Shown here one piece after another: positions 1-50,734 of a DNA stretch of 64,000 bases (its first letter is position 1; every line of letters begins with the position of its first letter). The DNA is from Bradyrhizobium sp. NDS-1. GTDB lineage: Bacteria; Pseudomonadota; Alphaproteobacteria; Rhizobiales; Xanthobacteraceae. The position numbers and the translations under genes are program-made. The stretch is taken from contig NZ_CP136628.1 in assembly GCF_032918005.1 (NCBI RefSeq), positions 682,001-746,000 on the forward strand, read 5' to 3'. The notes beneath the pieces were generated by a model. It saw nothing but the letters and a program-made list of their open reading frames with translations. It was not told the DNA's origin and searched no databases.

Positions 1-795
1 ATAGCGGTTGCTCCAGAACTCCTGCGGCTGTTCGTACTTCTTCAGGCGGAACATGCAGCGCCGCTCGTCGATCGCGATCGCCTGCCGGAAGATCCTGACG
101 CTCGGGTTGCGCAGCGTGAAGGCGAGCTCCTCCAGGCTCGGCCAGAACAGCCGGTCGGCGCGCGGCACGATCACGCTCGCCACCGTGTCCCACACGCCGA
201 TGAAATGGATGGTCGGCCAGCGCGTCGAGGTGATCCGCGCGAACTGCGCTGCGAGGTCGAACGCATCCTTCGGCAGCGGCCCCTGCTCGTCGAAAGCGAC
301 GTTCGCCGAGTCCTCGACGTCGTTGCCGCGCCCGGTGCCGGAATACTGCTTGTAGGCGACGAGGCCCGAGCCTGCGAGGTTCGCCTGCTCAGGCCTGATC
401 AGCCCGATCTTGTGGATCAGCCCCGCCAGCACGCGCACCGTATAGGCCCCGCGCGAAAAACCGAACAGGTAGATGCGGTCGCCCGGCGCGTAATGCTGAA
501 CCAGGAAGCAATAGGCCGAGAGCACGTTGTCGTCGAGCCCGTAACCGGTGGCGAGCCCCAGCACCAGGTTGATATTGGCTTTGAGCCGGTGCCACGTCGT
601 CGGCTCCGTCACCGTGCCGACCCCGGGATCGTAAAACACCATCTGCCGCGGCTGCGTCTTGTCGGTCTTGCGCAGGCAGCGATACAGCTTCAGGACGTTG
701 GAGATGTTCTCCGAGATCTCGTTGCCGGTGCCGTCACAGCAGATGACGAGGTTTTTGGGGGCGGGGTGGGGGGCGGGGTTGGCGGCGTGGTCCAT
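1..795 (-). CDS. DUF2235 (Tle1-like) alpha/beta hydrolase, 3' end outside window
   Basis: An open frame runs from an ATG at 795 to the window edge without a stop, giving 265 codons. Residues 17-25 read VICCDGTGN, the hallmark start of the DUF2235 family, and residues 112-116 read GFSRG, a GxSxG nucleophile elbow followed by AYTVRVLAG. DUF2235 includes the Tle1 phospholipase effectors of type VI secretion, but many members are stand-alone proteins of unknown substrate, and no secretion gene is visible here. There is no signal peptide. Codon use is GC-rich like the core genes and unlike the next gene. Family assignment is firm; a lipase activity is only inferred. Confidence 0.85.
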   Translation of the reverse strand, partial: MDHAANPAPHPAPKNLVICCDGTGNEISENISNVLKLYRCLRKTDKTQPRQMVFYDPGVGTVTEPTTWHRLKANINLVLGLATGYGLDDNVLSAYCFLVQHYAPGDRIYLFGFSRGAYTVRVLAGLIHKIGLIRPEQANLAGSGLVAYKQYSGTGRGNDVEDSANVAFDEQGPLPKDAFDLAAQFARITSTRWPTIHFIGVWDTVASVIVPRADRLFWPSLEELAFTLRNPSVRIFRQAIAIDERRCMFRLKKYEQPQEFWSNRY

Positions 796-916
796 GGGAT
801 GCGCCTCGGGGTGATGCTACCGGGGCGAGTATAGCGGAAAATGGTGAGAATAGGCAGAATGTAGACCAAACGAACGGGACACTCTAATTGCTGATCAAGC
901 AAAACAGATGCTTAGA

Positions 917-3900
917 TTAGCCGTGATAGATAACCCCAATGATTGCGCGCGCGCTTGTAACAGTTCGAAATCCCTTTTGGGGCTTGCCAATCGAAAGGAC
1001 CTGAGATGAGCCAAGACCGCCGATGCTTTCGAATTGCCAAAGATGATTTAGTTCGGCCGGTAACGAGGCCCCAATGCGCTTAAAAATACTTGACCCATCG
1101 TCGAGAGCCAATGCTACGAGCGCATCTCTATGTTGCCCAAGTTCATTTAGCTCAATGAGCGCTCCTCCTAGTACCACTTGTTTTTCAAGTGCTAGCGGAA
1201 CAGCGCTGTCGTCGGAAACTCGAAAGGCTATCTCAACGCGCTTCAGAACGCCACTAGCGTCGACTTGAACTGCCTCATCCTGACCTTGTGAGGGCACCAA
1301 GTTATGATCGAAAACTATTCCAACTACTCGATGAATAGATACGTCGGCCTCAGGTAGAAAGATGGTCTTAGGAGATTTAGTGCGAGGATCTGGGACCTCT
1401 GCGGTGAGACCGATGACATTCGAACTTGCGCTGCGCACCAAGCGCCGCGCATACGTCGTCGTGCCGTGCCTAGCAATTACGAGCCGTCGGTCGGCGACAG
1501 GGGCTGGGATCGCCTCGACAATAGCTATCGAATTAGCGGGGGCAGCAAAGCCAAAATTGGAACGTCTCAGAAGGTATGCGGCTGTATTGTCGAAAATACT
1601 CGGGGAGAGATGCTCCGGAGCAGCCTGTGACTCGCCTGGCGGAGAGTGGTGGGTGAATGCCGCTAAGTCAGGGCAAACCAAAACGTTCACGCTGGGACTG
1701 GTCACCGGAGCAAGCGCTGGCGGAAACACCTTACCCTGAGCCTGGTTTGGGAGTGCGTCCCTGCGCCGCCAGCGATAGCATTCCTCGTACATGGCTTCGA
1801 CTATTTCAAGAAGCTCGCTTAGATCGCGAGCACATTGCGCAACTTCAGCGGCTCGGATCTCATGGCGCCGACCGTGATGCGACTTATTCATAAGAGCAGT
1901 GACAGGAGATCCATCAACAAGTGCCGGATGGTCGACAAAGCGCCTGAAGATGTGAGCGCTGAACATCCCCTGCGGAGCGGACTTTACCAATGGGCGGAGA
2001 CGTTGCACAAAAGTTGACAAAGTCGGATCGGGATTTGCGATAGTCCAAGCCGCTGAAGCAGGATCGTCAAACATGTCTCCAAGCTTTGCTTCGAGGAAGA
2101 CGCGGCAACTATCCGCGAATTCCCGGGCGGGCTCCTCCATGTTAGGGTCCGCTTCAAATCGCCGTCTCCGTTGCTCGATGGCGGGAAGCGATGGCGTGGT
2201 TCTGATCACGGGCTGTAGGCGTGTCGCCGGATTAACTTCGAGATGCTCAACGCCTCCCGAAATCGGAAGTCGCGAAACTCGCGCAGAAAAGCGGGGATCG
2301 TACGACGAAACGACGAGTTGTGCGCCAGTTTCAACCAATGGAACAAGCGCTGACGCTAGACGCTCTCGATTTTCATCATCCAAGAGTTCTTGCGGGTCAT
2401 CTAGAATCAATATGACGAGCCCGCCACGATCTTTCAGTACATACTCCCAAAATGCGAGAAAGAACGCGACCAAGCTTGCGCGTAGTGCGGAGGCATTTGT
2501 CACATGTTGTGCGGGGGCCGCAACGCCACCGGTCTGAACGACCAGATCCAATTCGCCCTTGCGACCGAGCCCCGTATCGATCAATTCGTGGGCGGTATCA
2601 GGAAATGCGCCAAGATAGATTCGCTTTCGCCATGCCGCTGCCTCGTCTCTCAAGGTAGCTCGCAGGTGGTCGACTTGCTGGTCGGCGAGTTGGCCTAGGT
2701 CGAGAAGATTTAATAGTGCCGCACTTGCAATGCGGTATTCGCGAAGGCGACTTTCGGCCTTGCGCCGCTCTTTTAGATGCTGCCTGAGGCGATCGCACAG
2801 CATTATTGCATCGGAGATTGGTTTTGCGTCCTGTACAGTCGTTTGCAGGTGTAGCAGCTTGCCCGTGAGAGTGGTTATCTCCTTAGCGTCGTTCTCTCTA
2901 GCTGACCGTCCTAGCACTTTGCTCACTATGTCTCGTACAAGCGTATCGTTGCTTTGGCGCCATCTCGAAAAGCGAATGGCGCAATCAAGCCGCTTAAGAG
3001 TTTCACTGAGTGAGTAACATCCCTCTGGGAGGACTATCTCAGTTGGCTCGGGTAGAGCAGCTCGATTCTTGACGATCTCGTCAAAATCAGAAGCGGTTTG
3101 TAGCTTCAACTCCCTCAAGACGCCACGGAATGGCTCAAAATTGAAGAGTTCGTCTACAATGGCGGTTCGAAGCAAATCGCATGGATGCGAAGGAAGAGTT
3201 CGCGTGCACTCGGCCCGAAGTGCCTCAGGCAAGTTCCGCAACAACTCTCCTTGTGCATTTTCGGCCCAACGACGGATAGTCTGAGAAAGCAGACCCGCAT
3301 CGGACGCAGCGTCGTGCAGATGTGTTCGCACCGGCACACCTGTTACCGGATCCTTCGCTTCATTAAGATCATTGCCACAAACGACGCAAACATCATCCTT
3401 GCGTTCTGGATCGGGGTGATCGGCGATCCAAGTAGCTACTCGCGCGTAGAGGCGGATGCGCGCGGCTTTGGAAGGGTCTTGTGCCAAGGCATCGAGGACC
3501 CTTGCCTCGGTGAGAATGTTTTGGATTCTATCGTCGGCCGCTTCCAGTTGTTGGGATTCGATCTGGCGTAAGACTGCAAGTCGAGACGCAGAGGGAAGGT
3601 CCTGAGGTCGGCCGCTTCTCTCAACCGCTCGGCTAGTGTTTGACACAAGATCCGAAATGAGAGTCGCGTTCGCCGGATCAAAGCTTTGACCGAGAATATC
3701 TTTGGCAGCCTCAAAAGCCGACGCCTTGGCGCCCTCGAAATGACGTGCGATCTCGTTCAGCGCTTCCTCGATATCCGCAGCCCCGGATGGAGGAGGTGCC
3801 GGAGGAGCCGAAGACAAGGTTGGATGGCTAAGCAAGATACTACTCAGGTCATCCCTCGCGAGGCTGTAGCTGCGATCGGCCTGCTCAAGTTCGGCAATCT

Positions 3901-4858
3901 TTGCTTTGATGAATTCTTTGTCGATTTTGGTCTTCGTGCGCCGTGCGTGCTCCGCTAAATCGACGAGAGCGGAAAGGCCCGTGAGCTGAGAAACGGCGCG
4001 CCCCAACTCGGACTCTGATCCGACTTCAATCATCGGAAGTAGTCCCGGCATGACGGAGCCGATTCTTATCGCGATTGGATCAATTCCTAGGATCGATAGA
4101 TCTGGAGGAGTCTCCTTCAACTTTCCTTGTGGCGATCGGCTCTGGCTGCGACGAATAGCCGGTAAGACGACTCCGGCTTCATCAACGAATGTCAGCTCGA
4201 CCCAGGTATCGCTAGGTATCCATGGCTCGCTAGGGCGATACTGCTCCACATTTGGTAAGGGTGTAATCGGCGAAAGCTTATGTGCAGTTCGATCCTGGCC
4301 GGCCGTAGGCGAGTCTATCCAGCACTCAAAGTCTTCTGCAGTTTCGGGAGCGCGCTGCGGACGGAGCATTTCGCCTGTAAGCGTCCAGATGATAGCGTTG
4401 AGCAGCGAAGTTTTGCCTGAGCCGTTTCGTCCCTCGAAAAGTGTGAGTGATGTCGAAAATTCGTGGACATAGTTGTCCGGAGCAACTCCCGGCGTTCCAA
4501 ACTTGTGCAGTCCCGCAAACCGATGTGCCTCGACTTTTTTCAGCCGCAAACGACGATTGTTTGAGTTGATCGAGCCCGCACTGGAAGGAGGCAGTTGGGG
4601 TGGCTCCCGAAAGATACTATCGACTAGATCTTCGGCATGAGCCGCGCTCACATTAGCTGCCCATGTCGCCGGATCTCGCTTCCGGTACCATTCTAGCGCG
4701 CTACGCGTCCGTTCGTCAGGTAAGGAAAAACTCGTGCCACCACGGATAGAAATTGACTCGCCGCCAATCAGGCTAACAACAAGCGAAGTGAGCGTGTGAA
4801 GGTGCAGAGCGCGCGGTTTGAGTTCAGACACGCTTTCTCCAATATCAATGGTCTTCAA
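917..4858 (-). CDS. Large SMC/Rad50-like ATPase with S24-like C-terminal region
   Basis: This 1313-residue protein starts at a TTG with only a weak ribosome site, so the start is uncertain. About 100 residues precede an ABC-type ATPase that opens with a Walker A GRNGSGKT at 143-150. A C491-V-V-C494-G pair in the middle resembles a Rad50 zinc hook. A Walker B with D820-D821 (ILDDPQELLDD) closes the ATPase. The remaining 450 residues are not typical of SMC proteins; about 1105-1185 (SIAIVE, VIARHGTTTYARRLV, VVGIVFDH) resembles the LexA/CI S24 fold, but the Ser-Lys dyad is not evident. The DNA is visibly AT-richer than its neighbours and no partner nuclease is adjacent. A DNA-repair or anti-phage role is a guess. 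Confidence 0.75.
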   Translation of the reverse strand: MKTIDIGESVSELKPRALHLHTLTSLVVSLIGGESISIRGGTSFSLPDERTRSALEWYRKRDPATWAANVSAAHAEDLVDSIFREPPQLPPSSAGSINSNNRRLRLKKVEAHRFAGLHKFGTPGVAPDNYVHEFSTSLTLFEGRNGSGKTSLLNAIIWTLTGEMLRPQRAPETAEDFECWIDSPTAGQDRTAHKLSPITPLPNVEQYRPSEPWIPSDTWVELTFVDEAGVVLPAIRRSQSRSPQGKLKETPPDLSILGIDPIAIRIGSVMPGLLPMIEVGSESELGRAVSQLTGLSALVDLAEHARRTKTKIDKEFIKAKIAELEQADRSYSLARDDLSSILLSHPTLSSAPPAPPPSGAADIEEALNEIARHFEGAKASAFEAAKDILGQSFDPANATLISDLVSNTSRAVERSGRPQDLPSASRLAVLRQIESQQLEAADDRIQNILTEARVLDALAQDPSKAARIRLYARVATWIADHPDPERKDDVCVVCGNDLNEAKDPVTGVPVRTHLHDAASDAGLLSQTIRRWAENAQGELLRNLPEALRAECTRTLPSHPCDLLRTAIVDELFNFEPFRGVLRELKLQTASDFDEIVKNRAALPEPTEIVLPEGCYSLSETLKRLDCAIRFSRWRQSNDTLVRDIVSKVLGRSARENDAKEITTLTGKLLHLQTTVQDAKPISDAIMLCDRLRQHLKERRKAESRLREYRIASAALLNLLDLGQLADQQVDHLRATLRDEAAAWRKRIYLGAFPDTAHELIDTGLGRKGELDLVVQTGGVAAPAQHVTNASALRASLVAFFLAFWEYVLKDRGGLVILILDDPQELLDDENRERLASALVPLVETGAQLVVSSYDPRFSARVSRLPISGGVEHLEVNPATRLQPVIRTTPSLPAIEQRRRRFEADPNMEEPAREFADSCRVFLEAKLGDMFDDPASAAWTIANPDPTLSTFVQRLRPLVKSAPQGMFSAHIFRRFVDHPALVDGSPVTALMNKSHHGRRHEIRAAEVAQCARDLSELLEIVEAMYEECYRWRRRDALPNQAQGKVFPPALAPVTSPSVNVLVCPDLAAFTHHSPPGESQAAPEHLSPSIFDNTAAYLLRRSNFGFAAPANSIAIVEAIPAPVADRRLVIARHGTTTYARRLVRSASSNVIGLTAEVPDPRTKSPKTIFLPEADVSIHRVVGIVFDHNLVPSQGQDEAVQVDASGVLKRVEIAFRVSDDSAVPLALEKQVVLGGALIELNELGQHRDALVALALDDGSSIFKRIGASLPAELNHLWQFESIGGLGSSQVLSIGKPQKGFRTVTSARAIIGVIYHG

Positions 4859-5094
4859 TTCAAGTTGGTAGTTCTTCGTGAGCTACCCGATCTTATTCGA
4901 CTGCTAACTGTGCTGTTCATGCCGACAAAAAAGTCGCGGCAGCTGCGCATACAAAAGCAACCATAGGCGGTATGCAAGGTTGCATGCGCGCTAAATCACA
5001 CCGTGGAAATACGGTCTACCTTTGAGGGATTAGGTCGCCGCCTCGGCAGCGACTGTTTTCATGGCGATAGAAGGGCAGTCGCCCCTCCCCCCCC
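4859..5094. other. AT-rich intergenic stretch between ATPase and rpmB terminator
   Basis: No convincing gene is seen on either strand. The base composition matches the AT-richer ATPase gene up to about 5035, then returns to the local norm. The promoter of the ATPase gene should lie here, but no clear -35/-10 pair was found. This may mark the edge of an acquired segment. Confidence 0.5.
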
Positions 5095-5130
5095 AACAAA
5101 AACGGCCGGATCTTCCGATCCGGCCGCTAC
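5095..5130 (-). terminator. Rho-independent terminator of rpmB
   Basis: Read on the minus strand, a CGGCCGGATC / GATCCGGCCG hairpin with a short loop is followed by a run of five T. It lies about 65-100 bases downstream of the rpmB stop and on the correct strand. Confidence 0.85.
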
Positions 5131-5195
5131 TCAAACTCTACTCGGCTAAGCCTACGCCACGCGACGCAACTTAGCCCCCGCCCTGACGGTAAAAC

Positions 5196-5507
5196 TCAGC
5201 TGGCCTTCTTCGCCGGTGCGGCGGTCGGGCCGACCTTCTTCTGGATGGCGCGCTTCAGCTCGAGGGCGCGCGGCGACAGAACGTCGGCCTTGGCCTTGAG
5301 CAGATAGGCATCGAGGCCGCCATTGTGGTCGACGCTCTTCACCGCGTTGGTGGAGACGCGCAGGCGCACGTTGCGCTCGAGGGCTTCCGAGATGAACGTC
5401 ACGTTGACGAGGTTCGGCAGGAAGCGGCGCTTGGTCTTGATATTGGAGTGGCTGACCTTGTGGCCGACGAGGGGGCCCTTGGCCGTCAGTTCGCAGCGGC
5501 GAGACAT
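5196..5507 (-). CDS. rpmB: 50S ribosomal protein L28
   Basis: The 103-residue protein starts [20 protein letters not shown], the typical alphaproteobacterial L28 N-terminus, and contains [14 protein letters not shown]28 is a structural protein of the large ribosomal subunit. The ATG at 5507 is chosen because an AAGGA site lies about eight bases upstream; a longer frame to 5630 lacks family support. A basic, Ala/Lys-rich tail ([12 protein letters not shown]) ends the protein. The gene is monocistronic, with its own terminator downstream. Confidence 0.97.
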
Positions 5508-5653
5508 GGCATCAATCCTTATCCTAAACCCCCAACGATTTGCGGCCGCCATTCTGGGCGCCACGGGGGCGAATTCTCTGTCCTTGCAGGGAGCGGGCGG
5601 ACGTATAGGGGGGAAGGGGCGGGACGTCAAGGCGACGGGCCATTTTTGGCCTG

Positions 5654-5690
5654 TCGTCCCGGGGCGCGCGCGAGCGCGAACCCGGGATCT
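5654..5690. repeat. Dispersed palindromic repeat, family A (short form)
   Basis: It reads TCGTCCCGGGGCGCG, then a GCGCGAACCCGGGATCT arm. The same arms occur at 6928-7035, 23154-23191 and 27164-27211. The arms pair to form a hairpin. Confidence 0.7.
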
Positions 5691-5737
5691 CAGGCGGCAA
5701 ATCAGGTGCCATCACCCGCCTTGTGCGCACTGGGGCG

Positions 5738-5820
5738 GGCGATCCAGTACGCCGCGGCGGCGCGGCTGACCAGAGGGGCCGCGGCGTACCGGAAGCCCCG
5801 GTCAAGCCGGGGCATGACGG
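5738..5820. repeat. Dispersed repeat, family B
   Basis: It shares the 18-mer ATCCAGTACGCCGCGGCG and the hairpin GCCCCGGTCAAGCCGGGGC with the copy at 7420-7527. The element sits in the rpmB upstream region. Confidence 0.7.
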
Positions 5821-6025
5821 CGGAGGACGGGGAGAGGTGTCAGGGTCCGGCGCCCCCTCCCGATCACCAAAACGGCAATGTTTGTCGCGCGTTACCATCA
5901 CATAAAGGGCGTATTCGCCGCCGAAGAGTCCGGTGGAGTTCCGCGCCTCGACATACCCGGACACATTGTTTGCCGCGATTTTTGGCTTAAGTAACTTCGC
6001 ATCGCGGCCCCGATTGGATTGTTTC

Positions 6026-6910
6026 GTGCTCATCACGCCCCCTCTTGCGCACAATTTGCGCTCGGTCCGTCCGCGCTCTGCCGGCAGGCTGACGGCGCTT
6101 TGCGGCGTGATCCTTCCCCTGGCGCTGGCGTGGGGCGCGGCGCCGGCCGCGGCGCAGGGCAAGCTCGAGGCGCAATATGAGGCCTCGCTGTCAGGCATTC
6201 CCGTCGGCAAGGGCGGCTGGAACATCGACATCCAGGACGACGTGTTTGCGGCGGCCGCCGCCGGCGGCACGTCGGGCCTGCTGAAATCGTTCACGGGCGG
6301 GTCCGGCACCGGCGCCTCGCAGGGCCGCGTCGTCAATGGCGCGCTGGTCGCGACCGGCTACCAGGCCTCCACCACGACACAGAAGAAGACCGAAGAAATC
6401 CGCATCACGCTCGACAAGGGCAATGTGAAGGATTTCGCGATCCTGCCGGAGCCGCCGGTCGATCCTGACCGCATCGTCGTCACCGATGCGCATCGCCGCG
6501 GCGTCTGGGACCCCATGACGGCCTCGCTCTTGCGCGTGCCCGGCACCGGCGATCCCGTTTCGCCGGAGGCCTGCCACAGCTCGGCGCCCGTGTTCGACGG
6601 GCGCATGCGCTACGATCTCAAGCTCGATTTCAAGCGCATGGAGACGGTGAAGGCGGAGAAGGGCTATCGTGGCCCGGTCGTGGTCTGCTCGCTCTATTTC
6701 GTCCCTGTCGCGGGCTACATCCCCGACCGCCCCGTGATCAAATACCTCGCCGCCCAGCGCAACATCGAGATCGCCTTCGCGCCGATCGCCGGCACCCGCA
6801 TCCTCGTTCCGTTCTGGCTGAAAGTGCCGACGCCGCTGGGGCCTGCCATGCTGGAAGCGACCAGCTTCGTCACCACAGCCCAGCCGCCAAGGGTGGCGAA
6901 GACGCAGTAG
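6026..6910 (+). CDS. DUF3108 domain secreted protein
   Basis: The product (about 294 residues) opens with a hydrophobic stretch ending in AAPAAAQG, a signal peptide, so it acts in the envelope. The mature part (LEAQYEASLSGIPVGKGGW) fits the DUF3108 family, whose function is unknown. The start is a choice: GTG at 6026 places the basic and hydrophobic parts of the signal correctly, while the frame is open back to an ATG at 5933 through DNA that looks non-coding. There is no good ribosome site at either position. The gene stands alone; a family A repeat follows closely. Confidence 0.75.
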   Translation: MLITPPLAHNLRSVRPRSAGRLTALCGVILPLALAWGAAPAAAQGKLEAQYEASLSGIPVGKGGWNIDIQDDVFAAAAAGGTSGLLKSFTGGSGTGASQGRVVNGALVATGYQASTTTQKKTEEIRITLDKGNVKDFAILPEPPVDPDRIVVTDAHRRGVWDPMTASLLRVPGTGDPVSPEACHSSAPVFDGRMRYDLKLDFKRMETVKAEKGYRGPVVVCSLYFVPVAGYIPDRPVIKYLAAQRNIEIAFAPIAGTRILVPFWLKVPTPLGPAMLEATSFVTTAQPPRVAKTQ

Positions 6911-6927
6911 GGCGTCTTCCCCCCCGC

Positions 6928-7035
6928 CGTCATTCCGGGGCGCGCCGCAGGCGCGAACCCGGAATCCATCCTGCCACCGTCTCCGCCGCCCAATGGATTC
7001 CGGGCTCGCGCCAAGAGGCGCGCCCCGGAATGACG
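6928..7035. repeat. Dispersed palindromic repeat, family A (complete)
   Basis: The 108-base unit is bounded by a perfect 17-base inverted repeat: CGTCATTCCGGGGCGCG on the left and its exact complement on the right. Inside, GCGCGAACCCGGAATCCAT and its near-complement form inner arms. It follows the DUF3108 stop by 17 bases and could also act as a terminator. Confidence 0.85.
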
Positions 7036-7419
7036 AGCGAATTTTTGGCTCAAAAAAGTGTCAGTAATTTCAAGCGCATACCTACTGTGCATGGGGTTGT
7101 TTTCGCAAAAATGAGTCCGGGCAGGCCCAGGTCCGGGGAATCCATTTGACTCCTCCCCGATTCTGATTCGACTCCGCGCCGTCCCCAACTTAACGCTTTG
7201 CGCCATCGAAACGCCGCTTGTACGGCAGCCCGAAACTCCATCTAGTTGCGGCCAACAAGACTCCCGCGACATGTTGCGTGAACGGAACGGGACTCAATCT
7301 GGAGTCAGCGATTCGGCCGCGATTCGTTCTAGAGTCGTTCCGAAGCTTAACACCAACGGGAAAAGCGTCGCAAAGTGAGACAGTTGCGCGGGATTTGGGC
7401 GATGCTCCTACACCCACCG

Positions 7420-7527
7420 CCGTCATGCCCCGGCTTGACCGGGGCATCCAGTACGCCGCGGCGTCCCGGCTCAATCATTGCTGACTCTGGAATACTGGAT
7501 CGCCCGGTCGAGCCGGGCGATGACAGC
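7420..7527. repeat. Dispersed repeat, family B (complete)
   Basis: Two hairpins, GCCCCGGCTTGACCGGGGC and CGCCCGGTCGAGCCGGGCG, flank a middle section that starts ATCCAGTACGCCGCGGCG. The unit begins CGTCATG and ends GATGACAGCGG, so its ends are also complementary. Confidence 0.75.
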
Positions 7528-7609
7528 GGTGCGCATGTTTGGGGCCATGCACCTCACCGCCCCAGACAGCACTGACATTCGCCCAAATCGCCATTACCTA
7601 ATCCCCCAG

Positions 7610-10600
7610 ATGCCCTTTTCCTCCTCCCCCTTCGCTTCCGAGCGCGCCGCTTCCGATCGTGTGCCTGGCGCCGGCGTCACTGCGGTGCTCGGCCCGACCA
7701 ACACCGGCAAGACCCATCTCGCCATCGAGCGGATGCTCGCGCATCCCTCGGGCATGATCGGCCTGCCGCTGCGGCTGCTCGCGCGCGAGGTCTACAACAA
7801 GATCGCGGCACGGGTCGGAGCCGAGGCGGTCGCGCTCGTCACCGGCGAGGAGAAGATCAAGCCGAAGAGCCCGCGCTATTGGGTCTCGACCGTCGAGGCG
7901 ATGCCGCGCGACCTCGATCTCTCCTTCCTCGCCGTCGACGAGGTCCAGATCGCATCCGATCTCGAACGCGGCCACGTCTTCACCGACCGCATCCTCAACC
8001 GCCGCGGCCGCGACGAGACGCTGCTCTTGGGCGCCGCCACGATGCGCCCGATCATCGAACGTCTGCTGCCCGGCGTCTCCATGATCACGCGGCCGCGCCT
8101 GTCGCAGCTGGAATTCGCGGGCGATCGCAAGATCACGCGCCAGCCGCGCCGCACCGCCATCGTCGCGTTCTCGGCCGATGAAGTCTACGCCATCGCCGAG
8201 CTGATCCGCCGCCAGCATGGCGGCGCCGCCGTGGTGCTGGGCTCGCTGAGCCCACGCACCCGCAACGCGCAGGTGGCGATGTTCCAGAACGGCGATGTCG
8301 ATTATCTCGTCGCCACCGACGCCGTCGGCATGGGCCTCAATCTCGACGTCGACCACGTCGCCTTCGCCTCCGACCGCAAGTTCGACGGCTACCAGTTCCG
8401 CCGCCTGACGCCGTCCGAATTCGCGCAGATCGCGGGGCGCGCCGGCCGTGCCACGCGCAACGGCACCTTCGGCACCACGGGCCGCTGCGCGCCGTTCGAG
8501 CCCGAGCTCGTCAACGCGCTGCAGAACCACACCTTCGATCCCGTGAAGATGCTGCAATGGCGCAACGCCAGGCTGGATTTCGCCTCGCTCGGCGCGCTGC
8601 AGGTCTCGCTCAACCTCGCCCCCGGCCACGAGGCGCTGACACGCGCCCCGATCGCAGAAGACATGCGCGTGCTCGACCACGCCGCCCGCGACGTCGAGGT
8701 GCGCGATATCGCGCATGGCAAGGCAGCGGTGGAGCGCCTCTGGGAGGCCTGCCAGGTCCCGGACTACCGAAAACTGTCGCCGGCGGCCCATGCCGAGCTG
8801 GTGACGACGCTCTACGGCTTCCTGATGCGGAAGGATTGCATCCCTGATGCCTGGTTCGCCGCCCAGATCACCCAGGCGGACCGCATCGACGGCGATATCG
8901 ACACGTTGTCGGCCCGGATCGCGCAGATCCGCACCTGGACCTTCGTCGCCAACCGCCCGGACTGGCTGAAAGACCCCGAACGCTGGCAGGGAATCGCGCG
9001 GGAGGTCGAAAATAAATTATCGGATGCGCTCCATGAACGCTTGACTGAGCGTTTCGTTGATCGCCGTACCAGTGTATTGATGCGCCGCCTGCGGGAGAAC
9101 ACGAGCTTGAATACTGAAATCGGCAAGACCGGCGAAGTCATCGTCGAAGGCCATGTCATCGGCCGTCTCGATGGCTTCACCTTTGCACCGGATGCTGCGG
9201 AAGCGGGCTCCGATGCGAAAGCCTTGCAGGCTGCAGCGCAAGCGGTGCTCGCCGGCGAGATCAACACGCGCGCCGAACGGCTCGGCAACGCGCCGGACGA
9301 TCAGTTCGTGCTGACCTCGGAAGGCATCATCCGCTGGACCGGCGATGCCGTGGCGCGGCTGTCTGCCGCAGAGGACGCGCTGCATCCGCGCATCCGCATC
9401 ATCTCGGACGAGCGCCTGACCGGCGCTCCCCGCGACAAGGTGCAGGCGCGGCTCGAACTGTGGCTCAAGACCCATATCGAGAAGCTGCTCGGGCCGATGT
9501 TCGAGCTGTCGAAGGCCGAGGACGTCACCGGCATCGCCCGCGGCATCGCCTATCAGCTCGTCGAGGCGCTCGGCGTGCTGGAGCGTCCGAAGATCGCGAA
9601 CGAGCTGAAGGATCTCGATCAGCCCTCGCGCGCGGTCTTGCGCAAATATGGCGTCCGTTTCGGCGCCTATCACATCTATTTTCCCGGCCTGCTCAAGCCC
9701 GCCGCGCGCGCGCTGGCCGCGCTGCTATGGGCGCTCAAGCAGGACAATGTCGATCTGTCCTCGCTGTCGGGCGCACAGCATCTGGCATCCTCGGGTCGCA
9801 CCTCGTTCCCGGTCGACAAGGCGCTGCCGCGCGATGCCTATCGCGTGCTCGGCTACAAGCAGGCCGGCGAGCGCGCCGTCCGCGTCGACATCCTGGAGCG
9901 CCTTGCCGATCTGATCCGCCCGGCGCTGGCCTGGCGGGAGAATTCGTCCGGCGAAAAGCCGGCCGGCGCCTTCGATGGCCGCAGCTTCGTGGTGACGCAG
10001 GCGATGACCTCGCTCACCGGCTCTGCAGGCGAGGATTTTGCGTCGGTGCTGCGTGCGCTCGGCTATCGCATGGAGAAGCGTCCGCCGCTGCCGCAGAAGC
10101 CTGTCGTCGCCGAGCAGGTCGTGACTGAAACGGTCGCGGCGGAGACGCCGCCCACCGAGGGCAGTGCGGAGACATCGAGCGAGACCGCTGCGGAGGCCGT
10201 CGCCGGCCTGCCCGAGGAGGCATCCACCGAAGCCGCCGCGGAAGCCGTCACGGTCGAAGACGCTCCCGGCATGGACCGGCAGGACGAGGCCGCGCCCGCA
10301 GAGCCCGCGCTGGAAGCCTCTTCCGGGGCTCCCGTCACGCCCGAAGATGCTCCCGGCATCGCGCCGCCGGCCGAAGAGCCGGCAACCGCCCCGGAGGCCG
10401 CCGAGCTCGAAGCTGCTGCCGCCGAGACCGTGGCCATTGAAGCTGCCGCATCGCCCGACGCTGCCGCGCCTGAAGCCGCGGCGACGCCCGCAGAGCCCGA
10501 ACTGGTCGAGGTCTGGCGTCCCGGCGGCCGTCACGAGGACCGCAAGCCGCGCCACGAGCGCCATCGCCATCAGCGTCACCACCATCAGCGCCCGCAGGCG

Positions 10601-11041
10601 GGCGCTGAGGCTGGAGCTGCACCCGGTGCGGCGAGCGCCGCGCCCGGCGAAGCGGCCGAAGGCGCGAAGCCGGGTCACCGTCACGGTGGTGGTCATCGCA
10701 GGGATGGCGGCAGGGACTTCCGCAAGCCGCGCGAAGGTGGTGGCGAAGGCGCGCCGCGTCCCGAGGGGCGCGACGACAAGAACCGCCGCTTCGAGGGCAA
10801 GGATCGCGACAACAAGGGCCGTGATCGCGACAACAAAGGCAAGTTCGGCGGAGATCGCGACAAGGGCCGTGACGGCCGAGGCCGCGACCGTGACAAGGGC
10901 CGCGACCGCCAGGGCGGTCCGTCGCTGCGCCCCTACGCTTCGAGCGCGAACCCGCGCGAGCGCGATCGTCCGGCCGATCCGAACTCGCCCTTCGCAAAAC
11001 TCGCCGCGCTGAAAGAGCAATTGTCCGGTCGGAAGGAGTGA
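7610..11041 (+). CDS. SUV3-like superfamily 2 RNA helicase with long disordered tail
   Basis: The 1143-residue protein carries SF2 motifs in order: GPTNTGKT at 28-35 (motif I), DEVQ at 110-113 (motif II) and QIAGRAGR at 273-280 (motif VI). GPTNTGKT plus DEVQ is typical of the SUV3 family, which unwinds RNA in mitochondrial degradosomes and occurs in alphaproteobacteria. From about residue 830 the sequence becomes low-complexity: first Glu/Ala/Pro-rich, then His/Arg, then DRDKGRD- and DNKGRD-type repeats, probably an RNA-binding disordered tail. The ATG at 7610 is chosen because homology begins just after it, although the frame is open to 7478. An S4 RNA-binding gene follows by five bases. Confidence 0.88.
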   Translation: MPFSSSPFASERAASDRVPGAGVTAVLGPTNTGKTHLAIERMLAHPSGMIGLPLRLLAREVYNKIAARVGAEAVALVTGEEKIKPKSPRYWVSTVEAMPRDLDLSFLAVDEVQIASDLERGHVFTDRILNRRGRDETLLLGAATMRPIIERLLPGVSMITRPRLSQLEFAGDRKITRQPRRTAIVAFSADEVYAIAELIRRQHGGAAVVLGSLSPRTRNAQVAMFQNGDVDYLVATDAVGMGLNLDVDHVAFASDRKFDGYQFRRLTPSEFAQIAGRAGRATRNGTFGTTGRCAPFEPELVNALQNHTFDPVKMLQWRNARLDFASLGALQVSLNLAPGHEALTRAPIAEDMRVLDHAARDVEVRDIAHGKAAVERLWEACQVPDYRKLSPAAHAELVTTLYGFLMRKDCIPDAWFAAQITQADRIDGDIDTLSARIAQIRTWTFVANRPDWLKDPERWQGIAREVENKLSDALHERLTERFVDRRTSVLMRRLRENTSLNTEIGKTGEVIVEGHVIGRLDGFTFAPDAAEAGSDAKALQAAAQAVLAGEINTRAERLGNAPDDQFVLTSEGIIRWTGDAVARLSAAEDALHPRIRIISDERLTGAPRDKVQARLELWLKTHIEKLLGPMFELSKAEDVTGIARGIAYQLVEALGVLERPKIANELKDLDQPSRAVLRKYGVRFGAYHIYFPGLLKPAARALAALLWALKQDNVDLSSLSGAQHLASSGRTSFPVDKALPRDAYRVLGYKQAGERAVRVDILERLADLIRPALAWRENSSGEKPAGAFDGRSFVVTQAMTSLTGSAGEDFASVLRALGYRMEKRPPLPQKPVVAEQVVTETVAAETPPTEGSAETSSETAAEAVAGLPEEASTEAAAEAVTVEDAPGMDRQDEAAPAEPALEASSGAPVTPEDAPGIAPPAEEPATAPEAAELEAAAAETVAIEAAASPDAAAPEAAATPAEPELVEVWRPGGRHEDRKPRHERHRHQRHHHQRPQAGAEAGAAPGAASAAPGEAAEGAKPGHRHGGGHRRDGGRDFRKPREGGGEGAPRPEGRDDKNRRFEGKDRDNKGRDRDNKGKFGGDRDKGRDGRGRDRDKGRDRQGGPSLRPYASSANPRERDRPADPNSPFAKLAALKEQLSGRKE

Positions 11042-11045
11042 TCCC

Positions 11046-11315
11046 ACGACCGAGCGCCAGCGCCTCGACAAATGGCTGTGGCACGCGCGGGTGGTGAAGG
11101 CGCGCACCTCGGCCGCTGAGCTCGTCGAAAAAGGTCACGTTCGCATCAACGGCGCGCGCGAGACCTCCCCAGGACATGCGGTCAAGATCGGCGACGTGCT
11201 CACCATCGCGCTCGATCGCACCGTGCGCGTCTTGAAAGTGACGGGCTTCAACGAACGCCGCGGCGATGCTGCCTCGGCGCGGGTGCTCTACGAGGAGCTC
11301 GGCGCGCGCAATTAA
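11046..11315 (+). CDS. S4-domain RNA-binding protein (Hsp15-like) with apparent ACG start
   Basis: The frame encodes TERQRLDKWLWHARVVKART, the conserved start of the S4 / Hsp15 family, whose members bind RNA and rescue stalled 50S subunits. The first canonical start codons in this frame (GTG at 11088 and 11091) would cut off the RLDKWLW motif. Between the in-frame stop at 11010 and that motif there is no ATG, GTG or TTG. A strong GGAAGGAG at 11031-11038 lies seven bases before an ACG at 11046, where an ATG would be expected. The gene follows the helicase stop by five bases and is surely co-transcribed. It is 89 residues if ACG is used. Confidence 0.8.
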   Translation, partial: TTERQRLDKWLWHARVVKARTSAAELVEKGHVRINGARETSPGHAVKIGDVLTIALDRTVRVLKVTGFNERRGDAASARVLYEELGARN

Positions 11316-11447
11316 TTGCGCATTCAATTCATTTCTTGGCCGATCAAGCGCACACAAGTGTCATGATCGCGCTTTCACGACCTTGCGGCGCCGGGCCATC
11401 CGCGCTACGCAAGCCGCGACTTTTAAAAGAGCTTTTCGGAGCGTTGG

Positions 11448-11786
11448 ATGACTTACGTCGTCACTGAAAACTGCATCAAGTGCAAGTACACCGACTGCGT
11501 CGAGGTCTGCCCGGTCGACTGCTTCTACGAAGGCGACAACATGCTCGTCATCCATCCTGACGAGTGCATCGATTGCGGCGTGTGCGAGCCGGAATGCCCC
11601 GCCGACGCCATCAAGCCGGACACGGAACCGGGCTTGGAAAAGTGGCTGTCAGTCAATGCCGACTACGCCAAGAGCTGGCCGAACATCACCCAGAAGAAAG
11701 AATCACCCGCCGACGCCAAGGAATTCGACGGCATGGAAGGCAAGTTCGAGAAATATTTTTCTCCGAACGCCGGCTCCGGCGACTAA
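11448..11786 (+). CDS. fdxA: Ferredoxin FdxA, 7Fe/8Fe type
   Basis: This 112-residue cytoplasmic electron carrier has two cluster motifs in its first 55 residues: [18 protein letters not shown] and [12 protein letters not shown]. The extra cysteine spacing in the first motif is typical of the Azotobacter FdI-like group with one 3Fe-4S and one 4Fe-4S cluster. The acidic tail of about 50 residues is normal for alphaproteobacterial FdxA. A GGAG lies six bases before the ATG. The redox partner cannot be told from the context. Confidence 0.95.
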
Positions 11787-11853
11787 TTCGGGCCCAAACT
11801 TAACCCTAATAGCGGCGGCGCCGCGAAAACCAGCCCTGAAGACCCCTAAATCA

Positions 11854-11881
11854 TTGATTTTTGCGGGAAATGTGCTATATT
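11854..11881 (+). promoter_or_regulatory. Putative sigma-70 promoter of carD
   Basis: TTGATT at 11854-11859 and TATATT at 11876-11881 are separated by 16 bases. Transcription would begin near 11888, about 45 bases ahead of the GTG at 11932. Confidence 0.5.
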
Positions 11882-11931
11882 GGGCACATTAAGCCGAACC
11901 CCGTCAGCCCCGTTGGCCCCTCTGGGTTCCC

Positions 11932-12954
11932 GTGAAACCAAATGTCGAACAGGGGCGTGGCAGTTTCCGCGCGCAGGCTGTGTCACAGAAAACGCGTAAA
12001 AAGAGTACTTCAGCGAGGGCTTCCCATAAGGAGGCCAAGAAAGTCGCCGCGGCCAGCCGTAGCGCATCCAAGGGTCGGACCGCGACGAAGGCGCCGGCTG
12101 CAAAGTCCTCGAAGAACAAAAGAAGCGCAATGCCTAACAAGACTGCCAAACCGGCCGCGAAAGCGACCGCCGCTAAGCCTGCTGCCAAGCCTGTGACTGC
12201 CAAGGCTCCGGCGGCCAAGGCTCCCGCTGCCAAGCCCGCCGCGCCGAAGGCTTCCGTTGCTGCTGCTCCTGTCAAGGCTCCCGTCGCTGCCGCCAAGCCG
12301 GCCGCGAAGCCCGCTGCTGCGCCGAAGGTCGAGGAAAAGAAGGTCGTGACCCAGCGTCAGGGCTTCAAAGCCAACGAATTCGTGGTCTATCCCGCTCATG
12401 GCGTCGGCCAGATCCTGGCCATCGAGGAGCAGGAGATCGCCGGTGCGAAGCTCGAGCTGTTCGTCATCAACTTCATCAAGGACAAGATGACGCTGCGCGT
12501 GCCGACCGCCAAGGTCGCCAATGTCGGCATGCGCAAGCTGTCCGATCCGGTGCTGGTGAAGAAGGCGCTGGAGACCCTCAAGGGCCGCGCCCGCGTCAAG
12601 CGCACCATGTGGTCGCGCCGCGCCCAGGAATACGAAGCGAAGATCAATTCGGGCGATATCGTCGCGATCGCGGAAGTCGTGCGCGACCTCTATCGCTCGG
12701 AGTCGCAGCCGGAGCAGTCCTACAGCGAACGGCAGCTCTATGAAGCGGCGCTCGACCGCCTCTCCCGCGAGATCGCGGTGGTGCAGCACTCGACCGAGAC
12801 CGAAGCGGTCAAGGAAATCGAGTCCCAGCTCGCCAAGAGCCCGCGCCGCAACGCCAAGGCGGAAGCCGCCGAGGGCGAAGCCGACACGGATGCCGAGGGC
12901 GATGCCGACGACACCGATGGCGACGACACCACCGTCGCCGACGAGGCCGCGTAA
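11932..12954 (+). CDS. carD: CarD-family RNA polymerase-binding transcription regulator
   Basis: From about residue 145 the protein matches the CarD RNA-polymerase interaction domain (FVVYPAHGVGQILAIEEQEI, then LRVPTAKVANVGMRKL) followed by the helical DNA-binding part. CarD stabilises open promoter complexes at rRNA and other promoters. The N-terminal 140 residues are a Lys/Ala/Pro-rich tail resembling histone H1, and the C-terminus is Asp/Glu-rich. The start is uncertain: GTG 11932 fits the predicted promoter and makes 340 residues; ATG 12130 (MPNKTAKPAAKA) would make 274. A strong terminator follows. Confidence 0.9.
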   Translation: MKPNVEQGRGSFRAQAVSQKTRKKSTSARASHKEAKKVAAASRSASKGRTATKAPAAKSSKNKRSAMPNKTAKPAAKATAAKPAAKPVTAKAPAAKAPAAKPAAPKASVAAAPVKAPVAAAKPAAKPAAAPKVEEKKVVTQRQGFKANEFVVYPAHGVGQILAIEEQEIAGAKLELFVINFIKDKMTLRVPTAKVANVGMRKLSDPVLVKKALETLKGRARVKRTMWSRRAQEYEAKINSGDIVAIAEVVRDLYRSESQPEQSYSERQLYEAALDRLSREIAVVQHSTETEAVKEIESQLAKSPRRNAKAEAAEGEADTDAEGDADDTDGDDTTVADEAA

Positions 12955-12983
12955 GCGGCTTCGTTCTGCGCAAGCCATCAAGA

Positions 12984-13008
12984 GCCCGGCCGTTCGGCCG
13001 GGCTTTTT
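12984..13008 (+). terminator. Rho-independent terminator of carD
   Basis: The stem GCCCGGCCG pairs with CGGCCGGGC around a two-base loop and is followed by five T. It lies 30 bases after the carD stop. Confidence 0.93.
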
Positions 13009-13047
13009 GTTGGGCTCGTGACAGCGGCGTCGAGCGCGATCGGCATG

Positions 13048-14442
13048 CTACGAGCCGCGGACCTGAGTCCATATTCCGATCGGACGCTGGATCCCGCGGA
13101 CGGCCTGTGGCTCTCGCGCCATCAGCGGCTGGAATGCTTCGGCTGCGCTGCCAAGCTCGTCCTTTGCGCGGCTGATGAGATCGTCGCTTGCCACCAGCGC
13201 GCAGTCGAGCGTGCGGGTCAACGCCTCGAGACGGCTTGCAGCGTTGACGGTGGCACCGATCACGGCAAATTCCAGACAGGTCTGCCCGATATCGCCGAGC
13301 ACCACCGGCCCATAATGCAAGCCGAAACTCACACGCAGCGGTGGCTCCCCCACTGCCGTTCGTTGTCCGTTCCAACCGTCCGCCGCGGCGATCATGGCCT
13401 GGGCACACCGCAGCGCGTTGCTGGCATCGTGCGCGCCGGTAAAGGGGGTGCCGAACGTCGCCATCAACCCGTCACCGAGATATTTGTCGAGCGTGCCGCT
13501 GTGACGGAAAACCTCCTGCTCCATCAGTCCGTGGAATTCGCGCAACGTCCGCACCACCTCCTGCGGCGCGCGCGCATCGGCAAAGGCTGTGAAGCCGACG
13601 ATGTCGACGAATAGCACCGCAGCGTGTTGCGTGCGCACCTGCTTCAGCGGCTCGTCCTGCTTCGACAATTCCGCGACGACATTGGGCGAGAAGTAGCGTG
13701 CCAGATTGCCGCGTTCGCGCTCGACCGCGGCATGTCGGACCAGCAGGTCATTACTGCGGCGGACCGCCAGCGCCAACGTGACGGCCACGATCATGAATAC
13801 GACGATTTCCTGGATGCGAAGGTGGAATCCGATCGCATTGGGCGAGATCATTGCCAACAAGCGGTGATCGTCGCCGACTGCGGCCGCGATGCGGGCCGTC
13901 AGCGCAGGATCCCGATCGGGCTGCCACCACACCCAGGCCATGCCGACCAGCCAGAGCGCGGCGGTCCACGTTCCGACCGCAATCACGGTCCGCCAGGAAT
14001 AGGCCAGTGTGGCACCTGCGAGCAGTACGAAGAAATAGATGAAGTTGCCGAAATGGTACTGCATCGCGACCGGCCAGTGCGTAGTCCCGAATGGATTTGG
14101 GACCACGATGAGGAGGGTGAGCAACGCCAAATCGCAGAACAGGAGCGCCAATTCGGACCGTGAGACGCCCACCCGCCCAACCCTGACCTGGGCCCAGCCG
14201 ATCAGTGCGAACAGGCCGAGCAGCGCCACGTAGTAGAGCTGCTCCCACGCGGGATTGATCGCCAGCAGCAGGCAACCGATGACGGCGAGGGCGAAATAGC
14301 GCGCCCGCACTGCGAGTTGCAGACCCTCATGCTTGGCGGAGGTCAGCGCGGCCTCTGCGAACTCAACTGTTTCGCTGCCGCGCTGGCCGCGCGCGGGCGA
14401 AAGCGCGGCAGGTAGGTCGAACCGCTCGACGAGCATTGTCAC
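13048..14442 (-). CDS. Membrane-bound class III adenylate/guanylate cyclase
   Basis: The N-terminal half has several membrane segments between about residues 45 and 235. The C-terminal half is a class III cyclase domain: VDIVGF with the metal aspartate at 280, KYLGDG with the second aspartate at 324, and GLHYGPVVLGDIG and FAVIGATVNAASRLE further on. It should make cAMP (or cGMP) at the inner membrane face. The GTG at 14442 is preferred because AGGAG lies six bases upstream; an ATG two codons later is the alternative. It is downstream of regR on the same strand, 125 bases apart, so it may be read from the cyo-regSR side. Confidence 0.9.
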   Translation of the reverse strand: MTMLVERFDLPAALSPARGQRGSETVEFAEAALTSAKHEGLQLAVRARYFALAVIGCLLLAINPAWEQLYYVALLGLFALIGWAQVRVGRVGVSRSELALLFCDLALLTLLIVVPNPFGTTHWPVAMQYHFGNFIYFFVLLAGATLAYSWRTVIAVGTWTAALWLVGMAWVWWQPDRDPALTARIAAAVGDDHRLLAMISPNAIGFHLRIQEIVVFMIVAVTLALAVRRSNDLLVRHAAVERERGNLARYFSPNVVAELSKQDEPLKQVRTQHAAVLFVDIVGFTAFADARAPQEVVRTLREFHGLMEQEVFRHSGTLDKYLGDGLMATFGTPFTGAHDASNALRCAQAMIAAADGWNGQRTAVGEPPLRVSFGLHYGPVVLGDIGQTCLEFAVIGATVNAASRLEALTRTLDCALVASDDLISRAKDELGSAAEAFQPLMAREPQAVRGIQRPIGIWTQVRGS

Positions 14443-14567
14443 GGGAGACTCCTCGCTGGGACCTTTGCAGCAAAGCGACGGCCATCAGCCGCAGCAATCG
14501 GCAGTCTAGAGGTGCTTGGCCGCGAGGTCATCAGCCAGGCTGGGCATTTGGACGCTGAAAGACGTGC

Positions 14568-15101
14568 CTACCTGACCGGTCGCTTCTCGAGCTTCCTTGC
14601 CAGCGTGCGCCGGTGCATCCCCAATCGTCTTGCCGCTTCCGAGATGTTGAAATCAGTCTCGATCAGGGTCTGGTGGATGCGCTCCCATTCCAGCGTCTTG
14701 ATCGAGGTTGGCCGCGCATCCAGCGCGACTTCGGTGTTGCCTTCGGCCTTGTTGAAGGCGGCCTCGATATCGTCGGTATTCGACGGCTTTGCCAGATAAT
14801 GGCAGGCCCCCAGCTTGATCGCCTCCACGGCGGTAGAGATGCTGGCAAAGCCGGTGAGCACCACGATCAGCATGTCCGGGTCGTGGGTGTGCAGGAGCTC
14901 TACGCAGGCGAGGCCCGAGGCGCCGCCGAGCTTGAGATCGACCACGGCATGGCCGAAGGAGCGCTCCTCCAGAACGTTGCGGACCTCTTCGATCGAGGCG
15001 GCCAGCACGACCTCGTAGCCGCGGCGCTCGAACGAGCGCTTCAGCGTGCGCGCGAAGCCTGCGTCGTCCTCGACGACGATGAGCGAACGGTCAGGCGTCA
15101 A
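14568..15101 (-). CDS. regR: Redox response regulator RegR (ActR/PrrA/RegA family)
   Basis: The receiver domain has the acidic pocket at E11-D13, the phosphorylation site D55 (VVDLKLGG), T83 and K105. A short linker leads to a Fis-type helix-turn-helix at 152-172 (NISEAARRLGMHRRTLARKL), nearly invariant in the RegA/PrrA/ActR/RegR group. Length (177 residues) fits the family. In Bradyrhizobium RegR controls fixR-nifA and other redox-regulated genes. The regS stop overlaps the regR start by 11 bases, so the two are translated from one message. Confidence 0.95.
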   Translation of the reverse strand: MTPDRSLIVVEDDAGFARTLKRSFERRGYEVVLAASIEEVRNVLEERSFGHAVVDLKLGGASGLACVELLHTHDPDMLIVVLTGFASISTAVEAIKLGACHYLAKPSNTDDIEAAFNKAEGNTEVALDARPTSIKTLEWERIHQTLIETDFNISEAARRLGMHRRTLARKLEKRPVR

Positions 15102-16494
15102 AATTTCCTCCGATCGCCAGCGTTGCGAGCGGCAGCGTCAGGCGCACGGTGGCGCCCCGCTTCCTGTGATTCTCGGCGGTCACGGTGCCCCCCAACTTGC
15201 GCACCACGTTCACCACCAGGAACAGCCCGAGCCCGCCGCCGGCGCGGCCCTTGCTCGACTGATAGGGCTTTCCGAGCTGCGCCAGCATCTCCGGCGCAAA
15301 GCCCGGGCCGCGATCGCTGATCGACAGCACGAGGTTGTCGCCCTCGCGCTCGGCCACGAGTTCGACCCAGTCGCGCGAGACCTCATAGGCGTTGTCGAGC
15401 ACGTTGAAGATGACCTGCTTCAACGCGATGTCGGAGACGATGGCGACGTCCGCGCCGAACGTATTGACGAAGTAGAGCGTCCGTGCCGAGCGCGCGTCAC
15501 GCCACTCGTCGACCAGCGCGGTCACGAACGCCGTCACCGTCGTCGGCGAGGAGCCTTCGCCGCGCGCTTCGCCCGCCGACACCAGGATGCCCGTCACGAT
15601 CGACTTGCAGCGTTGCAGCGAGGTTTCCATCTCCGCAAGGTCCTCGGCGAGCTCCTGATCCGCGGCGAGATCCGGCATGCGACGCCAGTCGCTGAGGATC
15701 ACCGACAGCGAGGCCAGCGGCGTCCCGAGCTCGTGCGCCGCGCCGGAGGCGAGCAGGCCCATGCGCACGATGTGATCCTGCTCGGCGGCATGCTGGCGGA
15801 ATGCCGCCAGATGCGCATCGCGCTCGCGCAGGTTTCGATTGATGCGGGTGACGAACACGACCAGCAGCACGGCGTTGAGCACGAAGCCCAGCAGCATGCC
15901 GGCGACCGAGAGCGTGTAGGTCTCGCTCAGCGGGTTTGGCGGCAGGTCCAGCGGGCGGTATGCCAGCGTCAGCCACACGAAGCTCGCGCAGGTCAGCGCG
16001 ACCAGCGACCAGGTCGAGCGGGCATCGAGCAGCACCGCGCCGAGCGTCACCTGGAGCAGGAACAGCGAGGTGAAGGGATTGGTGGCTCCGCCGGAGAGAT
16101 AGAGCTGCGCGGTCAGGGCGGCCACGTCCAGCATCAGGGCGACCAGCAACTCGTTGTTGGTGATCGCGGCGCGATGGCGCACCCAGATCAGGCTGGAGAC
16201 GTTGAGCAGCACCAGCGCGCCGATCACCGCGCCCATCCGCTCCAACGGCAGCGGAATGCCGAGCCCAAAATGCACGCCGCCGATGGTCACGATCTGGCCG
16301 ACGACCGCGGTCCAGCGCAGCTGGATCAGCAGCGCCATGTTCTTGCGATTGGTCTCGTCGTCGGTCGGCGCGGCACCGATCAGCTCGCTGCGCGCGTCCG
16401 CCGGCGATTGCAGCGTGACGGCCAGCCCGCCATGCGCAAGTGTTTGGGAAAGCGTCTTCCCGTCGTCAGGCCTGTTCGACGATCGTTCCAGCAT
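15091..16494 (-). CDS. regS: Redox-sensing histidine kinase RegS (RegB/PrrB/ActS family)
   Basis: The 467-residue protein has membrane segments, a quinone-site motif GGATNPF at 135-141, the phosphoacceptor H254 in AAHELGTPLASLS, a cysteine at 296 (QRCKSIV) matching the redox-active cysteine of RegB, and ATPase boxes (NVLDNA, DRGPGF, GGGLGLFL). Thus both known redox-sensing elements of RegB are present. The ATG at 16494 has an AGGACGGG site and overlaps the end of the SURF1 gene by 29 bases. Its partner is the adjacent regR. The position at the end of a quinol oxidase operon fits sensing of respiratory state. Confidence 0.94.
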   Translation of the reverse strand: MLERSSNRPDDGKTLSQTLAHGGLAVTLQSPADARSELIGAAPTDDETNRKNMALLIQLRWTAVVGQIVTIGGVHFGLGIPLPLERMGAVIGALVLLNVSSLIWVRHRAAITNNELLVALMLDVAALTAQLYLSGGATNPFTSLFLLQVTLGAVLLDARSTWSLVALTCASFVWLTLAYRPLDLPPNPLSETYTLSVAGMLLGFVLNAVLLVVFVTRINRNLRERDAHLAAFRQHAAEQDHIVRMGLLASGAAHELGTPLASLSVILSDWRRMPDLAADQELAEDLAEMETSLQRCKSIVTGILVSAGEARGEGSSPTTVTAFVTALVDEWRDARSARTLYFVNTFGADVAIVSDIALKQVIFNVLDNAYEVSRDWVELVAEREGDNLVLSISDRGPGFAPEMLAQLGKPYQSSKGRAGGGLGLFLVVNVVRKLGGTVTAENHRKRGATVRLTLPLATLAIGGNFDA

Positions 16495-50727: not shown

Positions 50728-50734
50728 AGTGGCG

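Follow-up and report, generated by a model that had tools for sequence, protein, structure and literature searches.

A zinc-hook ATPase joined to tandem LexA-like folds at a variable gene site of Bradyrhizobium

Introduction

SMC/Rad50-like sensors make up a widespread class of bacterial immune proteins, and for most of them the way in which they are silenced and armed is open (see, for Lamassu, PMC10586767). According to the same text, LmuA and LmuC of Lamassu are usually encoded by separate genes, and LmuB has a length of ~650 amino acids. RloC and PrrC share the motif Arg-x3-Glu-x36-52-His, often with a Ser preceding the His, and mutating any one of the Arg, Glu and His abolishes the nuclease activity of RloC (PMC2610378); the nuclease domain of both is classed as a HEPN ribonuclease (RNase) in PMC3710099. 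This RNase is described as kept off in RloC by the protein's own DNA-break-responsive ATPase (PMC3874168, PMC2610378) and in PrrC by a restriction enzyme (PMC3874168, PMC3710099). Here we analyse a window, by which we mean the whole stretch of 64,000 nucleotides from Bradyrhizobium sp. NDS-1 (NZ_CP136628.1, positions 682,001 to 746,000), and within it a reverse-strand gene near position 917 that encodes a protein related in its parts to each of these systems.

Like RloC, the protein combines in one chain a Rad50-like head with a CxxC hook, a DDP following Walker B, as AAA_13 members have, and an R-x3-E followed by N-x-x-(S/H)-H, and the ABC ATPase with a zinc-hook insert typical of RloC and PrrC is present; it differs in its length of ~1304 amino acids, its N-terminal domain, its two S24 folds and a wider Glu-His spacing. 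With LmuB it shares the SMC/Rad50-like zinc-hook head, but it has ~430 extra C-terminal residues and no partner gene: a separate LmuA effector gene, with or without LmuC, is missing from its operon, the neighbours being rpmB and a conserved gene ending at ~841, and Lamassu proper was rejected on this ground. Unlike Rad50/SbcC, it carries extra C-terminal domains, and no Mre11/SbcD gene was found beside it. The common fold, the Ser-Lys pair and the A-A of the cleavage loop link it to LexA, UmuD and lambda CI, whereas the tandem with a dead first copy, the lack of a Gly past the conserved Ala and the fusion to an ABC ATPase, instead of to a helix-turn-helix or to nothing, set it apart. The preliminary description of the window, made from its letters, knew of no SMC-S24 fusion; none was present in the literature we searched, although the ABC-ATPase classification of Krishnan and others may mention one, and neither LexA nor S24 occurs in the part of the HEPN survey text available (PMC3710099). 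The parts are known and their combination appears new, as a variant of stand-alone ABC-ATPase defence.

We are highly confident of the architecture, a zinc-hook ATPase followed by a helical domain and tandem S24/LexA folds, and consider a role in defence probable. The whole reading, a stand-alone and horizontally moving defence protein with an S24 safety catch and a helical RNA-cutting part, is put forward tentatively.

Results

Architecture of the ATPase part

The open reading frame (ORF) was confirmed at 917-4858, where it had first been described, with 1313 codons when counted from its TTG; residues are numbered from this codon, and all features of the protein lie on the reverse strand. A small N-terminal domain (residues 10-102; 4553..4831), delimited by the secondary structure of the predicted model, precedes a Rad50/SMC/LmuB-like ABC ATPase head that is split by a helical arm (residues 103-880; 2219..4552) and was recognised by profile and structure comparison. 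Walker A GRNGSGKT (residues 143-150; 4409..4432), the zinc-hook type C491-x-x-C494 (3377..3388) and the DD of the Walker B end D820-D821-P-Q823 (2390..2401) occupy exactly the residues that the preliminary description had given. By Foldseek, the head matched the LmuB-like SMC ATPase 9hqu at E 1.7e-9, and the best PADLOC match of the protein was LmuB (E 5.8e-18); the structure comparison upholds the earlier assignment to SMC-like ATPases, as a head of SMC/Rad50 type. In the window protein, no Pfam family scored above its cut-off outside the ATPase part.

Conservation was counted over 21 proteins, in all of which K149, C491, C494, D820 and D821 are invariant. These counts leave out L015 and L017 (a single in-frame stop each), L022 (cut by a contig end), L024, L003-L004 and L006-L013 (decayed or fragments), L025-L027 (P-loop matches only), L005/L029/L036 (near-identical to L023), L002 (same as L014) and L001/L028 (same as the window); L033 is a shorter frame, from ~residue 421. 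The 21 are not independent, because L030/L031 and L018/L102 are close relatives. Nineteen relatives aligned with the window protein are 63-78% identical to it and collinear over nearly the whole length, which makes the fusion a fixed architecture.

Tandem S24/LexA folds

The C-terminal region contains two S24 folds, copy 1 at residues 1056-1185 (1304..1693) and copy 2, of catalytic type, at residues 1191-1313 (920..1288). A profile built from 15 C-terminal pieces matched only LexA in the PDB (11 of 11 matches up to E 10, best E 0.002), and Pfam Peptidase_S24 matched nine of the 15 members, with a best E of 2.6e-5, the window member not being among them. A structure model of residues 881-1313, with a predicted local distance difference test score (pLDDT) of 82, matched LexA, CI and UmuD. 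The fold is accordingly supported by profile and structure for copy 1, and by structure only for copy 2; likeness by chance was rejected in view of the LexA-only profile matches and the structure matches. The structure prediction and fold search that the preliminary description had proposed thus return an S24 core, and the stretch it had singled out, residues 1105-1185, is indeed S24-like; however, this stretch belongs to a catalytically dead copy, and the Ser-Lys pair sits in residues 1191-1313.

Positions in the two copies were compared by hhalign. In copy 1 those of the catalytic Ser and Lys are taken by N1101 (T or S in some members) and R1138, the Lys being lost in 21/21. The pair is kept in copy 2 only, as the proposed catalytic serine S1218 (1205..1207; in DDSAVP, or GDSAFP in distant members) and the proposed catalytic lysine K1260 (1079..1081; in FKRIG), both in 21/21. 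Since every member examined keeps the pair there and nowhere else, catalysis seems to matter. Ahead of copy 1, L1065-A-A1067-F1068 (1655..1666) aligns with the LexA cleavage loop VAAG; A1067 is present in 21/21, and the region reads GRLAA in distant members. We think that self-cleavage releasing a latch is the simplest role for copy 2 catalysis and that the L-A-A loop is the best candidate site, and a proteolytic latch with the S24 part as safety catch is a possibility we favour somewhat short of even. In the structure comparison, rows for E. coli and P. aeruginosa LexA and for several CI proteins, in which the cleavage region is included, extended over the model from 172-178 to 430-433. Most others matched one copy only, and for T. 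maritima LexA (3k2z, chain 86-197) the match was confined to copy 1; the LexA/CI rows spanning both copies, judged by their end points only, hint at a swap in the modelled pair.

Several observations weigh against this interpretation. Foldseek alone gave no match at E <= 0.001 for the S24 model; the Pfam S24 matches fall in copy 1 in all seven listed cases; copy 2 alone retrieved no S24 protein from the PDB (E up to 10) and, from PHROGs, no group with an S24 name. In LexA, UmuD and CI a Gly follows the cleavage-site Ala, and in S24 peptidases an Ala/Cys-Gly site usually lies ~36 residues ahead of the Ser. Here A1067 is followed by F, S, R, H or Q and by Gly in 0/21, and the L-A-A loop precedes copy 1, 151 residues before S1218 and not ~36. 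Because Gly never follows, cleavage at A1067 is doubtful, and the loop is perhaps a mere docked pseudo-substrate; a LexA G85D mutant is among the structure matches of the model.

The same missing Gly, and a copy 1 that is a fixed pseudo-protease, would suit a defence ATPase whose S24 pair is non-proteolytic, a dimerisation or docking module that perhaps binds RecA filaments on single-stranded DNA and is recruited to damaged phage DNA uncut. Binding of LexA, CI and UmuD to RecA filaments, as recorded in the structure titles 8trg, 8gms, 8gmt and 8gmu, agrees with such a module, but the retention of S1218 and K1260 in all 21 proteins, set against the loss of the copy 1 Lys, points to retained chemistry in copy 2, and we regard an uncut pair as rather unlikely.

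In two copies left out of the counts, the single in-frame stop falls shortly ahead of the S24 pair or on the first strand of that pair (L015 at ~residue 1025, L017 at ~residue 1064).

A helical domain as candidate RNase

Between the head and the S24 pair, the predicted structure contains a helical domain (residues 885-1040; 1739..2206) that we consider the candidate effector. It carries R919-x3-E923 (2090..2104) and N991-K-S-H994-H995 (1874..1888), in which R919, E923, N991, H994 and H995 are invariant in the 21 aligned proteins. Some AAA_13-type proteins of the order have the same letters, for example R-x3-E...N-R-F-H-H. A hidden Markov model (HMM) running from before Walker B onward aligned with an AAA_13-like ATPase (L086) through R-x3-E at E 0.0008, after which L086 continues to N-Y-V-S-H; the better-scoring matches outside the family covered the ABC head only.

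Other results argue against an RloC-type nuclease. From the Glu, the spacing is x71 to H995 and x70 to H994, longer than the 36-52 of RloC and PrrC, and Pfam AAA_13 (PF13166) was not among the matches of the window protein at E up to 1. Aligning the helical domain by hhalign with eight AAA_13-type proteins from the order yielded no usable result, and an HMM of the domain, searched against 1070 ORFs of the fetched loci, found L086 as its best match outside the family, only at E 0.61. At the level of sequence, the domain is without a significant profile match to AAA_13 proteins, and ATPases of this kind may have the R-x3-E/N-x-x-H pattern for structural reasons. For two AAA_13-type proteins, a PDB sequence search returned only Rad50-like and chance matches in one case and nothing in the other, which left no RloC/PrrC structure for comparison. 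With a longer spacing and weak profile tests, an RloC-type RNase is a lead and not a membership; by analogy, an active RNase is conceivable, though we lean towards doubting it.

A model for gating within one chain

By analogy with Rad50, RloC and LmuB, the ATPase would clamp DNA ends or other abnormal DNA arising from phage or plasmid replication. At rest, the S24 pair, as an intramolecular pseudo-dimer, would keep the helical domain silent and present the loop L1065-A-A1067 to the S1218/K1260 site. Closure of the heads with ATP and DNA, possibly with the aid that RecA filaments give to LexA, UmuD and CI, would trigger self-cleavage near A1067 or some other event of equal effect. Once released, the ATPase-helical part might cut RNA, by analogy with RloC/PrrC a tRNA, and stop the infected cell. 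The S24 pair would be a safety catch in the same chain, the part that a type I restriction enzyme plays for PrrC.

In its strongest form, that of a one-protein, protease-gated suicide system in which a Rad50-like sensor meets phage DNA or a RecA filament, the S24 tandem cuts the chain and an RloC-like RNase is armed, this proposal is on the unlikely side. If true, we would know of no earlier ABC/SMC-family immune protein with a built-in LexA-type protease switch, and abortive infection would be tied directly to the SOS signal with no need of transcription, a possible post-translational route from RecA. A regulator fused in cis, with a mutable Ser-Lys pair, makes the question of silencing and arming directly testable.

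Distribution and mobility

The family is sizeable: of 7990 candidates that were scored, 392 are relatives at E <= 0.001 (120 listed). The gene itself is sporadic: counting the window genome, it is found in 5/149 genomes of relatives (two with decayed copies), 8/397 genomes of the order and 2/398 of the phylum, and a genome of the same species (G229) lacks it. A vertically inherited core gene, the result named in the preliminary description as refuting it, is therefore rejected. Of the 14 loci found in a contig scan, 11 were true relatives, from Bradyrhizobium, Microvirga, Mesorhizobium, Chelatococcus, Ralstonia, Pseudomonas, the acidobacterium Granulicella and four metagenome-assembled genomes labelled Nitrospira, Deltaproteobacteria, Rhodospirillaceae and bacterium. 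Among 72,556 plasmid records, 20 carry the gene or a decayed copy (seven of the 20 were fetched), and PLSDB typing classes nine as conjugative and seven as mobilizable; viral contigs and 50,697 phage records contained no homologue. Bradyrhizobium plasmids of ~0.98 Mb (contig C2 of G036/G061; H4-H7, H15-H17) hold a common gene copy that matches in 3-4 pieces, and their source fields all name peanut.

The rpmB cargo site

In the window, the gene is flanked by the conserved gene ending at ~841 and by rpmB (L28, recognised by reading), and comparison with other genomes defines the stretch between them (842..5091) as variable cargo. We compared the site in eight other Bradyrhizobium genomes; the rpmB-side matches begin at window 5088-5095 in seven of the eight and at 5194 in G280. 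One genome (G013, the source of L014) has a 78% homologue at a contig end, with the orientation and side that the rpmB site predicts, with ~5.6 kb more ahead of the conserved gene and rpmB opening another contig. The other seven have different cargo: Hachiman HamA/HamB (G339), AbiLi/AbiLii (G280), two methylases and a GHKL protein (G229), an AriA/NsnB-like ATPase (G009), an RmuC gene with a helicase piece (G021), a helicase-like piece (G063) and, outside the set scanned with PADLOC, a 381-residue ORF (G008). Each of the six scanned sites had at least one PADLOC match at 1e-5, the helicase, methylase and ATPase models being generic. The rpmB-adjacent site swaps defence genes among strains, and is a useful place to seek new systems. 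Because the gene sits where relatives carry anti-phage genes, one-protein phage defence is probable; against it stands that the case for defence comes entirely from genomic context.

Neighbours at other loci and alternative roles

At 24 other loci, several of which end at a contig end on one side and whose genes were mostly read by eye, no constant neighbour was read. Defence-type genes lie within the fetched flank at seven of the 24: at L023 DISARM DrmA/DrmB together with Vsr and an integrase, at L019 a GmrSD-like gene, at L021 a GHKL protein with a weak type II enzyme match and, by annotation, Shedu (L097), AbiEii (L099), a reverse transcriptase with SLATT (L101) and macro-domain/DUF4433 with RES (L103). 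PADLOC, run on ten neighbour proteins from five loci only, matched six, none of them from L020 or L038. The preliminary description had proposed a stand-alone sensor or defence protein; the neighbour check it called for supports the stand-alone layout, and the flanks, together with the rpmB site, support a defence setting, with the defence role itself argued from that context.

SbcD-like (Mre11-like) genes and SbcC-like neighbours adjoin the gene in L040, L098 and L099, twice on conjugative plasmids, and an SbcD-like gene lies at the edge of L103; the SbcC-like protein of L040 has no Pfam match and was read by eye. Together with the LmuB match and the nine conjugative plasmid records, this would fit a Lamassu/Rad50-like sensor with chromosomal or plasmid partners such as an SbcD/Mre11-like nuclease, acting in DNA repair or plasmid competition and not in abortive infection. 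A crude motif screen, however, found no SbcD in the other 20 of the 24 loci or in window 1-20000, and none turned up on reading the adjacent 16 kb on the left side; the site in the window, like others, lies among anti-phage genes, which leaves a partner-dependent role unlikely.

A rhizobial SOS-box consensus gave no match in 917-5092 (both strands, one site list), which counts against an SOS-linked model, and three in the whole 64 kb, where 1.8 were expected. S24 proteins such as LexA, UmuD and CI are typically RecA-responsive, and with the Rad50-like head this would suit a cell-stasis or repair-control protein that mobile elements carry and DNA damage activates, a checkpoint ATPase that is cleaved during the SOS response and has no anti-phage role, but the sporadic distribution, the exchange with Hachiman, AbiL and restriction-modification cargo in one site and the lack of an SOS box upstream make it quite improbable.

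Start codon, composition and further features of the window

The TTG at 4858 that the preliminary description took as the start of a 1313-residue protein does open the longest ORF; judged from sequence comparison, the true start is probably the GTG at 4831 (residue 10), giving a coding sequence of 917..4831 with the stop codon at 917-919 included. This start is favoured because 69 of the 120 listed homologues have exactly 1303 residues, 16 of 20 aligned members begin at the column that holds window residue 10, and GGAG (4837..4840), a likely ribosome-binding site read from the sequence, lies 5 nt before the GTG. A promoter scan found two sites, with 2.0 expected. The gene is AT-richer than its surroundings, as had been noted: GC is 53-55% across 1001-5000, compared with 59-73% in 1-1000 and 5001-14000 and 62-70% over the 16 kb that precede the window.

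Window ~5644-5692 is part of a ~40-base dispersed repeat that recurs in many partial copies across the 12 Bradyrhizobium genomes searched. A further AT-richer stretch (55% GC at 51001-52000) holds a gene, at 50681-52771, that reads by eye like TPR repeats with a caspase-like peptidase (GNAAY, YYSGHG, DACRNNP).

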